DNA of 48,874 nucleotides from a virus: positions 1 to 48,874 of the IMG/VR virus record IMGVR_UViG_3300025137_005831, one strand, 5' to 3'. The notes below the pieces were generated by a model. That model had not been told where the DNA came from and did no database searches. It worked only from the letters and a program-made list of their open reading frames with translations. This document shows, piece by piece, positions 8,815 through 24,582 of the stretch. The position numbers and the translations under genes were made by a program. Position 1 is the stretch's first letter. Every line of letters begins with the position of its first letter.

Positions 8815-8848
8815 GTATATATAATTAGAAAACAACGGAGGGCATCCA

Positions 8849-10664: not shown

Positions 10665-10693
10665 CCTTAAACAATTTAACCGGAGGGCATTCC

Positions 10694-13152: not shown

Positions 13153-13186
13153 GTATATAATAAGAAATTAACTTAATGAGGGCAAT

Positions 13187-14161: not shown

Positions 14162-14194
14162 GTATAAACAATAAGGAAACAGAAGGAGGGCAAT

Positions 14195-17137: not shown

Positions 17138-17170
17138 ATATAAACAATAACAATTAAGCATGAGGGCAAT

Positions 17171-17332
17171 ATGCAAAATATATTACAAAACTTAACTGAA
17201 AAAGAAATTAACACACTAACACACAAGTTGATGGAACGTGCTTTTACACAAATGGAGCAAAGTGAAGACTTGCAAAATGCGGATAAAGTTGCGGAGCACA
17301 TGGAAGATTATTATACAAACTTTGTAAAATAA
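17171..17332 (+). CDS. Small acidic protein in the YC-free block
   Basis: 53 residues: MQNILQNLTEKEINTLTHKLMERAFTQMEQSEDLQNADKVAEHMEDYYTNFVK. GAGGGCAAT precedes the ATG. Entirely helical in appearance. Its coding strand contains no TC or CC, so it has no Pro and no TCN serine. Unknown function. Confidence 0.72.
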   Translation: MQNILQNLTEKEINTLTHKLMERAFTQMEQSEDLQNADKVAEHMEDYYTNFVK

Positions 17333-17366
17333 TTAAAAAAAAGTTTAGTTATAGTGCATTTTTTGG

Positions 17367-17395
17367 TTGCATTACATTTAAAAGTGTGCTATAAC
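17367..17395 (+). promoter_or_regulatory. Promoter, TTGCAT type
   Basis: TTGCAT, 17 bases, TATAAC, upstream of the gene at 17436. Confidence 0.7.
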
Positions 17396-17435
17396 TATAA
17401 TACAATAAGTTAACAACTAACGCAAGGGGCATTGC

Positions 17436-17771
17436 ATGTTAAAAATTACAAACACTACTATTGAAAAAGACGGCACTTTTGGACTTAACACAAACTATAC
17501 TGTGGAAGGGACTGTAAAACTTGCTATGGATAGCATATGGAACTATGACGGCAAGGATGTTGTTACAGTTGAAAACATACAAATGTACACACACTTTGAT
17601 GACGACGGCAACGACAGCAATGTGGATGTAAATGTTACACACAATGCAACGTGGAACATATACACGGACAAAGGCTTTGAAAGTGCAATTAGTAACTTGT
17701 TGGGCTTTGACGTACAATTTACGGAACAAGGCATGCAAGACGACGGCTATGCTAGTATGGAAACAGCGTAA
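17436..17771 (+). CDS. YC-free protein, unknown
   Basis: 111 residues with alternating short strands (TNTTIEKDGTFGLNTNYTVEGTVKLAMDSIWNYDGKDVVTVENIQMY). AAGGGGCATTGC upstream. No TC or CC in 336 coding bases, all serines are AGY, no proline. Acidic. The 118-residue minus-strand frame over it is a shadow. Confidence 0.78.
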   Translation: MLKITNTTIEKDGTFGLNTNYTVEGTVKLAMDSIWNYDGKDVVTVENIQMYTHFDDDGNDSNVDVNVTHNATWNIYTDKGFESAISNLLGFDVQFTEQGMQDDGYASMETA

Positions 17772-17789
17772 AATAAAATAAAAAAAAGG

Positions 17790-17819
17790 TTGCACTATAG
17801 TATTTTTTATGCTATAGTG
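17790..17819 (+). promoter_or_regulatory. Promoter with internal inverted repeat
   Basis: TTGCAC, 17 bases, TATAGT. CACTATAG (17793) and CTATAGTG (17812) are perfect 8-bp arms covering the spacer ends and the -10, a likely operator. Confidence 0.65.
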
Positions 17820-17851
17820 TAACTATAATAATAACAAAGCATGAGGGCAAT

Positions 17852-18253
17852 ATGCAAAATACAGATACTAAGTTTACACAATGCGAAAAAGATTTTGTTG
17901 TAGAATTTTTGGCAGACGTACTATACAGCTTAACAATTAACAATGTACTAAGCAGACAAGAAGGTAACGGCTTTGTGCGTATGTGTGACGCACAAGAAGT
18001 AATGCAGAATTTAGAAAAGCTATATGATGCACACAACGAAGATGAAGGCGATTGGGTTGCAGAACAAGTAAAAGCAATTTGGACGTTTACAATAGACGAT
18101 GCGGAAGACGCACTTAAAAGCTATGACACAGAATACAGAGATTGTATATGCGAACAGTTTGAAGATGCGTGTACAGACGCACTAGCAGACGAGCACAAAA
18201 AACTATTGGATGCAGACTATGCAACACTAGCAGAAAGAATTTTGGGCTACTAA
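17852..18253 (+). CDS. YC-free acidic protein, unknown
   Basis: 133 residues, strongly acidic and helical (DAEDALKSYDTEYRDCICEQFEDACTDALADEHKKLLDADYATL). GAGGGCAAT before the ATG. No TC or CC in 402 coding bases. The pattern of helices suggests a bundle. A distant relation to the minus-strand gene at 18956 is possible (similar helix lengths), not proven. Confidence 0.78.
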   Translation: MQNTDTKFTQCEKDFVVEFLADVLYSLTINNVLSRQEGNGFVRMCDAQEVMQNLEKLYDAHNEDEGDWVAEQVKAIWTFTIDDAEDALKSYDTEYRDCICEQFEDACTDALADEHKKLLDADYATLAERILGY

Positions 18254-18271
18254 AATAAAATAAAATAACAG

Positions 18272-18300
18272 TTGACAACGTGTGTGTAGTGTGTTATAAT
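18272..18300 (+). promoter_or_regulatory. Consensus promoter for a likely small RNA
   Basis: TTGACA, 17 bases, TATAAT: full consensus. TGTGTAGT and ACTACACA arms flank the -10. The only thing before the next promoter is repeat copy 4 and a T-run. Confidence 0.75.
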
Positions 18301-18306
18301 AAAGCA

Positions 18307-18368
18307 TACTACACAAACTGTGAGGCCCCGCTGTAAGGTGGTAGGCTAGACGCACAAACTTTTTTAAA
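18307..18368 (+). ncRNA. Candidate small RNA carrying the AGGCCCCG repeat
   Basis: Bounded by a consensus promoter and a TTTTTT run at 18360-18365, with no reading frame of note. The 17-base repeat sits in its middle. A short RNA of about 60 bases is predicted. The stem before the T-run is not convincing, so the 3' end is uncertain. Confidence 0.4.
18322..18338 (+). repeat. AGGCCCCGCTGTA repeat, copy 4
   Basis: GAGGCCCCGCTGTAAGG. It is the only place between 17069 and 18756 where the plus strand has a CC or TC. Confidence 0.8.
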
Positions 18369-18375
18369 TTAATAC

Positions 18376-18404
18376 TTGACTTTATAATATAGCTGTGCTA
18401 TATT
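18376..18404 (+). promoter_or_regulatory. Sigma70-type promoter
   Basis: TTGACT, 17 bases, TATATT, upstream of the gene at 18436. Confidence 0.75.
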
Positions 18405-18435
18405 AACTTATACAATAACAAACATAGAGGGCAAT

Positions 18436-18711
18436 ATGTTAAACACAACACAAGTAAAAGAACTAGTTAAACAACGCTTTGGTGGAAGTATTAAACAAGT
18501 ATACTTAAACAAATGCTACAGCAATAAACAAGAACTAGCAGACAAACGCAACATGGCTTTTGCTGTAGATGGAGACGTGTACAAAGGCGTAGACTTAACT
18601 GCACTTGCACAAGAGATAGGATGCAAACGTGTTAAGCTACACACAGCATTTTTAAGAGGCTTTGCAGATGGCTGTTGGTTACGCTTACAGCATGTAAACT
18701 ATAACAAGTAA
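18436..18711 (+). CDS. YC-free basic protein, unknown
   Basis: 91 residues, basic. GAGGGCAAT upstream. The N-terminal LNTTQVKELVKQRFGGSIKQVYLNKCYSNKQELADKRNMAFAVDG looks like a small alpha/beta fold. No TC or CC in 276 coding bases. No family recognised. Confidence 0.75.
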   Translation: MLNTTQVKELVKQRFGGSIKQVYLNKCYSNKQELADKRNMAFAVDGDVYKGVDLTALAQEIGCKRVKLHTAFLRGFADGCWLRLQHVNYNK

Positions 18712-19877: not shown

Positions 19878-20129
19878 ATGCAAAAAATACAAAATACACA
19901 ATTTACAATTAGTACTAATAAAATGTTTAACAATAGTATTTTTATAAAAACTAATACAAAAAATAATTTAACTTATATGTGTAGTAGTATGCAAAAAGTT
20001 GCATTGTGTTTACAAGCACACAATTTAAAAAATGCAACTGTTAAATTTGCAAGTAACTTTTTAATTAATAAAAATGCTGTGCAAACTAATTTAGCACACG
20101 CAACTTATATACGCATTGCTAACGCATAA
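19878..20129 (+). CDS. Protein free of Asp, Glu, Gly, Pro and Trp
   Basis: 83 residues, Asn/Thr/Lys rich, basic. Same composition as the product at 19381. The 252-base frame has no TC, CC, GA or GG. Unlike almost all other early genes it has no Shine-Dalgarno: the leader reads AAAGTAGTAATAT, as if the GG/GA exclusion removed it. Function unknown. Confidence 0.6.
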   Translation: MQKIQNTQFTISTNKMFNNSIFIKTNTKNNLTYMCSSMQKVALCLQAHNLKNATVKFASNFLINKNAVQTNLAHATYIRIANA

Positions 20130-20146
20130 CAGTTATGCAAAAAATG

Positions 20147-20178
20147 CACTTGCAATTTATTTGCAAGTGTGTTACATT
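20147..20178 (+). promoter_or_regulatory. Promoter with operator-like repeat
   Basis: TTGCAA (20150), 17 bases, TACATT (20173). CACTTGCAA and TTGCAAGTG arms (20147-20169) repeat the element at 19342, suggesting one regulator for both genes. Confidence 0.65.
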
Positions 20179-20213
20179 AATAAAATAACAATAGTAAAAC
20201 GAGGGTAGCACAT

Positions 20214-20483
20214 ATGCAAAAAACAAAAGTAAGTTTAAACAAAAGCATTGCAAATTTAACTGCAAATATATTAAGCAATACTGCAAATTTTGTAATGCAA
20301 GAAAGTACAAAAAATAGTTGTAAAAGCATTTACAAAAATTTTAAATTTAACAGTACAACAAAAAGCAAAAGCGGAAATGAAACGCACTTTACTGCACAAA
20401 TGTATAATAATTATTACTGCGGGCGTTTGTGTATGCTAACATTTAAAAATAATGCGTTTGTTAGTATGTACACACTAGATTAA
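20214..20483 (+). CDS. YC-free basic protein, unknown
   Basis: 89 residues, Asn/Lys/Ser/Thr rich. GAGGGTAGC precedes the ATG. No TC or CC in 270 bases. GA/GG is absent for the first 80 bases and rare after. N-terminal similarity in style to the two neighbours (MQKxK...N) suggests a small paralogous group, too diverged to be sure. Confidence 0.65.
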   Translation: MQKTKVSLNKSIANLTANILSNTANFVMQESTKNSCKSIYKNFKFNSTTKSKSGNETHFTAQMYNNYYCGRLCMLTFKNNAFVSMYTLD

Positions 20484-20591: not shown

Positions 20592-20623
20592 AAGATATAG
20601 TTAGAAACAAACGGAGGGCTCCA

Positions 20624-21140: not shown

Positions 21141-21169
21141 GTAAGTATAATAATTAGAAAGAGGGCAAA

Positions 21170-21572: not shown

Positions 21573-21613
21573 GTAAGAACAATTAAACAATAACGCCTAG
21601 GAGGGCTTCTAAT

Positions 21614-22054: not shown

Positions 22055-22086
22055 ATAAACACAATAAGAAAACAGAGAGGGCATAA

Positions 22087-22319: not shown

Positions 22320-22357
22320 GTATATAATAAGAAATTAACTTAATGAGGGCAAAAAAT

Positions 22358-22888: not shown

Positions 22889-22917
22889 TTGACTTTAGAT
22901 ACAGTTGAAAGTATACT
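22889..22917 (+). promoter_or_regulatory. Early sigma70-type promoter
   Basis: CCAAAAGAGG then TTGACT, 17 bases, TATACT. Drives the AAA+ gene. Confidence 0.85.
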
Positions 22918-22957
22918 GTATAAACAATAAGAAATTAAATAACTGAAAGAGGGCAAT

Positions 22958-23965
22958 ATGAAGAAAATCAAAATAATAAGCGGTACTTACAAGATCCGAG
23001 GCAAAGACGTCGACCTAGCTGGTATGGTGTTTCCGATGACTGAGGGTTTCAAAGTAGGAGCCAAAGGTGGCTACGTAACAGTAGATGGTAAGAGCATTGC
23101 AGGGTTCCCAGACAGGAACATCAAGATCGCATGTGATGGCGAACATGCATATGAAGCTGTTGATGCAAGTACTAAGACATCAGTGCGTGAAGAGACCGAC
23201 GAAGAGACTGTTGATCGATTGCGTGAACGTTTCGAGATGCTAGAAGACATGACCAAGGCAACTAAGAAGGGTGATGTACGTGCAATGATCGTATCAGGTC
23301 CTCCAGGTGTAGGTAAGTCACATGGTGTTGAGAAAGTGCTGGGCAAGCATGATTTGATTGCTACACTAGGTGAGAGAGCTCCCAAGTATGAAGTTGTCAA
23401 AGGTGCTATGTCAGCAATAGGTTTATATTGCAAGCTGTACAAGATGGCAGACAAAGATAATGTTATCGTGTTTGATGACTGTGACAGCATCTTCAGCGAT
23501 GAGTTGAGCTTGAACATTTTAAAAGCCGCACTGGACAGCAAGAAGAACAGACGTATCCATTGGAACACTGATTCATTCAAGTTGCGTAACGAAGGTGTGC
23601 CAGATAGCTTTGAGTTCAAAGGCAGTGCTATCTTTATTACCAACATCAAGTTCGACAACGTTAAGAGCAAGAAGATGAGAGATCACCTGGAAGCACTTGA
23701 GTCACGTTGTCACTACATTGACCTAGCTATCGACACAGACAGAGAGAAGCTGTTGCGAATCAAGCAGATCACCAATGATGGTATGTTGAATGAGTACAAG
23801 TTAACAGAAGAAACAGTGCAAGAGATTGTGGACTTCTGCGATATTAATAAGAAGAGATTACGAGAGCTGAGTCTAAGAACAGTTCTTAAAGTAGCCGACT
23901 TAGCCAAAGCCTTTCCAGACAAATGGGAAGCGATGGCTGAGAACACTGTGATGCGTCGAGGCTAA
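22958..23965 (+). CDS. AAA+ ATPase
   Basis: 335 residues. Walker A GPPGVGKS (114-121), Walker B VIVFDDCDS (169-177), a sensor-1-like FITNIKFDN (about 227), and a helical lid (KLTEETVQEIVDFCDINKKRLRELSLRTVLKVADL). The N-terminal 100 residues are beta-rich and unassigned. GAGGGCAAT upstream. Monocistronic, ends in the twin-hairpin region. Similar stand-alone AAA+ proteins occur in many large phages; client unknown. Confidence 0.88.
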   Translation: MKKIKIISGTYKIRGKDVDLAGMVFPMTEGFKVGAKGGYVTVDGKSIAGFPDRNIKIACDGEHAYEAVDASTKTSVREETDEETVDRLRERFEMLEDMTKATKKGDVRAMIVSGPPGVGKSHGVEKVLGKHDLIATLGERAPKYEVVKGAMSAIGLYCKLYKMADKDNVIVFDDCDSIFSDELSLNILKAALDSKKNRRIHWNTDSFKLRNEGVPDSFEFKGSAIFITNIKFDNVKSKKMRDHLEALESRCHYIDLAIDTDREKLLRIKQITNDGMLNEYKLTEETVQEIVDFCDINKKRLRELSLRTVLKVADLAKAFPDKWEAMAENTVMRRG

Positions 23966-23981
23966 CTCCGCCACAGTGTTC

Positions 23982-24058
23982 TAGGAAGTAAACGTATGCC
24001 CTCACGCTTTACTTCCTACTTCGAACCCAGTAGTATGTGCCCTCGTACTACTGGGTTC
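23982..24058 (+). ncRNA. Twin hairpins with TGCCCTC loops complementary to the early Shine-Dalgarno
   Basis: Hairpin 1 (23982-24018): 11-bp perfect stem TAGGAAGTAAA/TTTACTTCCTA. Hairpin 2 (24023-24058): 13-bp perfect stem GAACCCAGTAGTA/TACTACTGGGTTC. The stems are unrelated, but both loops contain TGCCCTC (23997-24003 and 24038-24044). This is the exact complement of GAGGGCA, present just before the start codon of more than ten early genes. A third pair (AACACTGTG/CACAGTGTT, 23942-23980) spans the AAA+ stop codon. Likely a 3'-derived regulatory RNA. Confidence 0.6.
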
Positions 24059-24108: not shown

Positions 24109-24137
24109 TTGACCTTTGGTTCATATGAGTCTATAAT
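24109..24137 (+). promoter_or_regulatory. Early sigma70-type promoter
   Basis: CCAAAAGAGG then TTGACC, 17 bases, TATAAT. Confidence 0.82.
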
Positions 24138-24172
24138 ACATAGTATATTAAATAAAAAAGAGGGCAAAATAT

Positions 24173-24549: not shown

Positions 24550-24582
24550 CTATATATAAACTTAACAAGAGGGCTATACAAT

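Follow-up and report, generated by a model that had tools for sequence, protein, structure and literature searches.

A likely multi-loop antisense RNA behind a phage AAA ATPase gene, with loops matched to a lineage-specific Shine-Dalgarno extension

The alpha-r14/NfeR1 ("cuckoo") sRNAs of Alphaproteobacteria comprise three hairpins that leave the same anti-Shine-Dalgarno (anti-SD) motif unpaired on strongly different stems, and they are predicted to act as antisense RNAs at the SD of many mRNAs (PMC10746234). The CcsR1-4 RNAs of Rhodobacter, found with CcaF1, are related regulatory RNAs arranged in a row on one transcript behind a protein gene, with a terminator at the end (PMC10253847). In phages P1 and P7, c4 RNA carries complementary sequences, probably in loops, that pair around the ribosome-binding site (RBS) of the phage's own mRNA, with a specificity that differs between P1 and P7 (reviewed in PMC12197685). 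At the protein level, T4 RegB cuts GGAG in the SDs of many early mRNAs, its own included, and RegA binds start regions (reviewed in PMC3014915). The locus described here is a row of hairpins in the 3′ UTR of a phage AAA ATPase gene, whose loops are complementary to the RBSs of many genes around it.

A hairpin array and tagged RBSs in one phage

The window, the whole stretch of DNA that was analysed, is a 48.9-kb IMG/VR virus record. Its plus strand from ~5.6 to 25 kb carries many short genes, many of them with a sigma70-like promoter and a short leader; the remaining genes lie mostly on the minus strand. The array and its gene comprise the following features:

22889..22917, plus strand: sigma70-like promoter TTGACT-17-TATACT of the AAA gene (consensus scan, 10/12 positions; alone no proof of function)
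22958..23965, plus strand: AAA ATPase gene, T4 nrdC.10-like, with the hairpin array as its 3′ UTR (phrog_1250, E 2.5e-83; AAA; tblastn to Aeromonas phage 25 nrdC.10)
23940..23982, plus strand: hairpin 0, loop without GCCCTC, spanning the AAA stop codon
23982..24018, plus strand: hairpin 1, anti-RBS loop, 11-bp perfect arms (23982-23992/24008-24018)
23997..24003, plus strand: anti-RBS loop motif TGCCCTC of hairpin 1
24023..24058, plus strand: hairpin 2, anti-RBS loop, 13-bp perfect arms (24023-24035/24046-24058)
24038..24044, plus strand: anti-RBS loop motif TGCCCTC of hairpin 2

The AAA gene product (335 aa) shares 40% identity with a protein of Cronobacter phage S13, and its counterpart in Aeromonas phage 25 carries the name nrdC.10. 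No promoter-like site was found directly before the array; the nearest upstream is that of the AAA gene, which we infer, from sequence alone, to be the likely source of the array transcript. The next gene has its own promoter at 24109-24137 (11/12 consensus positions), between the array and the RBS at 24160.

The earlier note had described two perfect stems of 11 and 13 bp, unrelated in sequence, that share TGCCCTC in their loops. Both claims held and the coordinates were confirmed, each motif lying between the arms of its hairpin. In the minimum free energy structure of hairpin 2, the last C of the motif enters a weak two-pair stem extension and UGCCCU remains in the loop. The 141-nt hairpin region folds at -63.6 kcal/mol, compared with -34.2 kcal/mol in dinucleotide shuffles (z -7.7; 0/200). 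A third hairpin with 11-bp arms, hairpin 0, precedes the other two and overlaps the stop codon; its loop lacks GCCCTC in the window phage, and many relatives carry GCCCTC there. A ribosome finishing the AAA gene would open hairpin 0, so that AAA translation could influence folding of the array. There is no T run after the last hairpin of the window, and no terminator was called there. At the gathering threshold, only tRNAs matched Rfam in the window and eight related loci, and a nucleotide search of isolate phages with the hairpin region gave no match.

TGCCCTC or its complement GAGGGCA occurs 15 times in the window against 2.6 expected, a count that none of 100 shuffles reached. Two copies lie in the loops, 12 are GAGGGCA right before start codons and one lies elsewhere; the 12 start codons are those that had been named in the earlier note, and all 12 held. 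Three further RBSs read GAGGGCT (at 20614, 21601 and 24569), bringing the tagged starts to 15. The putative target RBSs are:

8838..8844, plus strand: GAGGGCA, gene 8849
10683..10689, plus strand: GAGGGCA, gene 10694
13178..13184, plus strand: GAGGGCA, gene 13187
14186..14192, plus strand: GAGGGCA, gene 14195
17162..17168, plus strand: GAGGGCA, gene 17171
17843..17849, plus strand: GAGGGCA, gene 17852
18427..18433, plus strand: GAGGGCA, gene 18436
20614..20620, plus strand: GAGGGCT, gene 20624
21161..21167, plus strand: GAGGGCA, gene 21170
21601..21607, plus strand: GAGGGCT, gene 21614
22077..22083, plus strand: GAGGGCA, gene 22087
22345..22351, plus strand: GAGGGCA, gene 22358
22949..22955, plus strand: GAGGGCA, the AAA gene itself (22958)
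24160..24166, plus strand: GAGGGCA, gene 24173
24569..24575, plus strand: GAGGGCT, gene 24583

GAGGGC thus precedes 15 of 41 hand-picked plus-strand starts and none of 33 minus-strand starts. The "early" status of the tagged genes is inferred from their sigma70-type promoters and gene block, with no expression data, and a search for protein families among the target genes found nearly none.

Two further observations concern the gene starts of the window. Genes 17171, 17852, 18436, 19878 and 20214 share almost the same leaders and starts (ATGCAAAAXA or similar; regions 17140-18440 and 19878-20214), which suggests duplicated small early genes. On the minus strand, 24 of 33 starts (1475 to 48685) have no recognisable SD-like motif, unlike those of the plus-strand block.

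Conservation and joint change of loops and RBSs in relatives

A search with the AAA protein returned 80 viral contigs. Approximately 60 distinct loci, here termed class A, carry one to five copies of GCCCTC (usually two or three) 3′ of the AAA stop codon, and mostly two to four hairpins. Their stems are largely unrelated or compensatorily changed, with GCCCTC staying in the loop: 179 of 241 copies, at 61 of 64 class A loci, fall in predicted hairpin loops, compared with 7-17% for control hexamers of like composition. The motif is strictly stranded, with 159 sense copies of GCCCTC in the 3′ UTRs and no GAGGGC. For the commonest loop type, TGTGCCCTCG, a gapless alignment of 40 distinct hairpins has 77% of cells paired and contains 119 double changes, and its covariation score of 0.80 compares with 0.23 after shuffling and at most 0.21 after sliding. 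According to the earlier note, loops not conserved in relatives would have refuted its reading; across these ~60 relatives, the loop motif is retained on replaced stems. In 36 of 62 class A arrays the last loop is followed by a T run, as expected for a 3′ UTR that ends in a terminator. At one locus (L048:2192-2640), the array persists although an insertion of ~440 bp, with no relation to the usual 3′ UTR, lies between the AAA gene and hairpin one of the array.

The RBSs of array-bearing loci carry the matching extension. GAGG before the start codon is followed by GC in 333 of 565 RBSs of these loci; this is not so in relatives without a GCCCTC array. Tagged RBSs cluster within ~10 kb around the AAA gene: a 268-kb record has 11 of its 13 in a 7-kb stretch, a 257-kb record 13 of 16 in 8.5 kb and a 275-kb record 19 of 24 in 11 kb. 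The next gene downstream of the array usually has a tagged RBS nearby. Of the 498 class A cases of GAGGGC itself, folding places 120 in loops; the folded stretch includes untranscribed promoter DNA, and we therefore leave this figure uninterpreted.

A protein-independent DNA pattern search found genuine arrays only 3′ of the AAA gene. About one third of its matches on viral contigs were rejected as chance (coding, GC-rich DNA). A pattern scan of GTDB genome DNA gave 89 stretches, which we take to be chance, with no array-plus-RBS cluster among those examined (GC under 0.55). The isolates with related capsids PA5oct, Vibrio 2.275.O, GAP32 and XbC2 have a distant AAA gene with no array 3′ of it and no excess of GAGGGC RBSs; Phosso has no AAA match.

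Many contigs (L001, L005, L007, L014, L023, L029 and L032) end 4-8 kb from the AAA gene, and the tagged early block may possibly lie near a genome end or an assembly break. Separately, a long-branch class A locus (L054:9884-10130) shows degenerate hairpin loops, almost no GAGGGC RBS and TAAATA-rich leaders; possibly, array and tag are decaying together there.

Turning to more distant relatives, a single-protein search with L057 yielded only four loci and was replaced by a profile search, which reached relatives at roughly 50-70% identity. Many of these lack a GCCCTC array and use another extended SD, GGAGCGAA (AGGAGCGA(A)). The loop expected for this class B was predicted from the RBS beforehand, and CGCTCC copies were then found 3′ of the AAA gene: class B loops TTCGCTCC, behind the AAA gene or the next gene, are the exact complement of the RBS GGAGCGAA. 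The loop consensus TTCGCTCCC matches the RBS consensus AGGAGCGAA over eight bases. Class B hairpins are tight (CCG-ATTCGCTCC-CGG); many 3′ UTRs carry two of them, and a T run follows the final one. In a further group, a single hairpin of this kind is found downstream of the next gene, ~700-850 nt from the AAA stop. Strand bias in the class B 3′ UTRs is 26 to 0. Class B RBSs also cluster around the AAA gene, with 14 of 18 in a 10-kb stretch out of 142 kb and 14 of 15 in 10 kb out of 107 kb. The perfect-stem search missed composite hairpins, and some class B hairpins (for example at L248, L249, L253 and L284) were missed by the folding criterion although the sequence is present.

Joint states of loop and RBS were scored on 140 of the 143 loci in the locus table. 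Loop and RBS were both class A at 58 loci, both class B at 35 and both absent at 30; one side was missing at 16, and a single locus combined an A loop with a B RBS. The latter (L285) has a stray GCCCTC in apparent coding sequence. Thirteen rows (L069, L261 and kin) form a clade branching with class A in which the array is absent and tagged RBSs are all but absent. Loop and RBS thus change together between lineages, through few independent events. As a side observation, members of this array-less clade (L069 and kin: L261-L265, L071, L076-L078) have little SD-like RBS, TAAATA being the commonest upstream hexamer in L069, and their hosts may possibly not rely on SD sequences.

Several limits apply. 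Few branches of the AAA tree carry a change of state, so that independent-contrast tests lack power and no significance is possible. Among independent pairs differing in loop state, the RBS agreed in 0.9, disagreed in 0.0 and showed no difference in 2.1 for class A (n=3), with corresponding values of 2.3, 0.0 and 6.7 for class B (n=9). One-base variants within class A gave no significant correlation between loop and RBS (rho 0.17, p 0.26). There are also unexplained exceptions. L039:5576-5700 has four hairpins with CCCTC loops (GCCCTC) but RBSs that are mostly GAGGAGCA, a broken match that remains unexplained; L109 has GCCCTC loops but the RBS GAGGGA, L267 has the loop GTCGCTCC but the RBS GGAGCAA, and no array was found at L285, L293 and L294. 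Two loci fit the pairing anecdotally: L053, with the RBS GAGGGAA and one TTCCCTC loop, and L058, with AAGGGCA and one TGCCCTT loop. The case is built from four elements: two exact complementary pairs of 7-8 nt, unrelated to each other, found at one and the same genomic position; the strand consistency; the covariation of the stems; and a sister clade that lacks both array and tag.

Proposed mechanism and alternatives

We propose that the array acts as an antisense RNA with several loops, located in a 3′ UTR, and that it prevents ribosomes from binding early phage mRNAs that carry a private SD tag. This reading is likely. The sequences show the hairpins, loops conserved on stems that differ, a consistent strand, complementarity, targets gathered near the array and a joint change of loop and RBS, and they strongly support pairing between loop and RBS; the transcript, its stability, repression and timing are inferred, with no expression data.

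In this model, the 3′ UTR of the AAA (nrdC.10-like) mRNA would serve as a regulatory RNA, a row of hairpins in which each loop presents a short anti-RBS sequence, GCCCUC in the window phage and UUCGCUCC in the sister lineage. Early-gene RBSs would combine a host-readable SD core (GAGG or GGAG) with a phage-specific tag of 2-4 nt (GCA or CGAA) read by the loops. The 16S anti-SD (CCUCC) pairs with GAGG and not with the GC(A) extension, so that the extension needs another reader. The AAA mRNA would be made early in infection from a host-type promoter, each copy with mostly two to four anti-RBS loops; as the RNA accumulates, the loops would pair in trans with tagged RBSs and exclude 30S subunits. 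Tagged early genes would be turned down and untagged genes largely spared. The AAA gene would be among those turned down, and since it is itself tagged the circuit would limit itself, which we regard as a possibility.

Modelled duplex energies are -12.0/-12.4 kcal/mol for cognate pairs, -5.4/-5.0 kcal/mol for non-cognate pairs and -6.3/-7.6 kcal/mol for the leader with the 16S anti-SD; these cover short duplexes only, without loop strain or initiation factors. At ~-12 against ~-5 and -6 to -8 kcal/mol, the loops could outcompete 30S subunits at tagged genes and leave other SDs mostly untouched.

The earlier note had suggested that RNA with such loops could pair with many early leaders and shut off or tune their translation, as a phage-encoded anti-SD RNA. 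The pairing is supported by the conserved loops and by the matching switch of loop and RBS in class B. Shut-off or tuning is supported as far as the sequence tells, a stable transcript and repression being inferred; to that extent the interpretation is right, and more general than one window could show.

A bolder extension, which we hold to be unlikely, is a private translational address code: each phage lineage would mark its early genes with an SD plus tag, to be decoded by an RNA whose loops fit that tag, and would change code (GAGGGCA, GGAGCGAA, perhaps others) as an escape from other lineages. The tag would then act as an immunity type, since any co-infecting phage that shares it would be exposed to silencing as well. 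Such code switching would resemble that of P1 and P7 c4 RNA, which there concerns a single gene.

Four rivals to the antisense reading were considered. The first keeps the same pairing between RNA and RBS and has it mainly raise or protect expression, through nuclease shielding or opening of leader structure. The sign of the effect is not fixed by pairing, and T4 RegB provides a precedent for nuclease attack on phage SDs (PMC3014915). However, the paired bases include the SD core GAGG/GGAG, so that a bound RBS is unavailable to 16S; for RNAs already known to carry anti-SD loops, a canonical antisense mechanism is assumed (PMC10746234); and the RegB family (Pfam PF10715) had no match anywhere in the search, which was thus without a positive control. 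We judge this rival very unlikely.

The second rival is an attenuator acting only in cis, with the loops pairing, on a transcript that reads through the array, to the next RBS downstream (24160 in the window). In its favour, a tagged RBS is usually close by in the next gene. Against it, the promoter between array and next RBS means that most mRNA of that gene would lack the array, two to five loops are superfluous for a single site, and about 10-20 tagged RBSs surround the array. A role in cis alone is accordingly very improbable.

As a third rival, the hairpins could be DNA or protein-binding elements, such as a repeated operator or sites for an RNA-binding protein, with an incidental resemblance to the RBS. 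Inverted repeats can bind proteins, and the loop flanks are partly conserved too (TGTGCCCTCG, CCGATTCGCTCCCGG). However, the stem sequence is unconserved, every copy of the motif lies on the coding strand (159 to 0), and two lineages have unrelated loop motifs that each fit the local RBS over 7-8 bases, which makes this rival very hard to sustain.

Chance, with CCCTC as a generic anti-SD core on ordinary terminator-like hairpins, would be compatible with only two copies in the window alone and with the T runs, by which the last hairpin often doubles as a terminator, but is all but excluded by the 15 occurrences against 2.6, by the loop at 61 of 64 class A loci and by relatives whose class B loops turned up as the RBS had predicted. 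A terminator-only reading is rejected because the loop sequence would then need no match to the RBS.

Significance and comparison with known systems

If the antisense reading is true, a single RNA together with a lineage-specific SD extension gives large phages control over an entire early regulon, an RNA counterpart of early shut-off by T4 RegB/RegA. Classes A and B would then amount to two orthogonal RBS/antisense sets provided by nature, and the system would clearly exemplify a trans-acting RNA that changes jointly with a regulon of RBSs. The phages are uncultured, yet the pairing of array and RBS is testable by plasmid reporters.

The likeness to RegB/RegA lies in early phage mRNA inactivation at the SD or start, by proteins there and by RNA here. 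RegA (Pfam PF01818) was found in none of 17 related virus records, several of them fragments, and was found in the positive control, Cronobacter phage S13.

Among RNAs, c4 shares loops complementary to the RBS of the phage's own mRNA, a feature that the array meets. However, c4 serves one gene (ant) in a temperate phage, whereas the array belongs to large phages, has multiple hairpins in a 3′ UTR and is matched by 10-20 RBSs, and neither c4 RNA nor any other Rfam family matched it. The CcsR1-4 RNAs share the row of regulatory RNAs behind a protein gene; these are DUF1127-associated, stress-controlled and cut by RNase E into separate sRNAs, whereas the phage array has no such protein. The array also meets the alpha-r14/cuckoo pattern of a common loop motif on differing stems. 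In contrast, the cuckoo motif is CCUCCUCCC, complementary to the generic SD, which the phage loops GCCCUC (class A) or UUCGCUCC (class B) do not contain; the cuckoo RNAs are bacterial sRNAs with their own sigma70-type promoter, whereas the array lies in the 3′ UTR of the AAA gene, with one to five hairpins, a phage-specific extended RBS and lineage-specific loop/RBS pairs.

The array differs from the alpha-r14/cuckoo, CcsR and c4 RNAs in motif, context and targets and matches no Rfam family; we assign it to none of them. In the open-access literature that was searched (open-licence papers only), we found no account of a phage RNA array directed at a private RBS shared by a whole regulon. The known part of the system is the multi-loop anti-SD RNA, and its distinctive part is the lineage-specific, matched pairs of loop and RBS.
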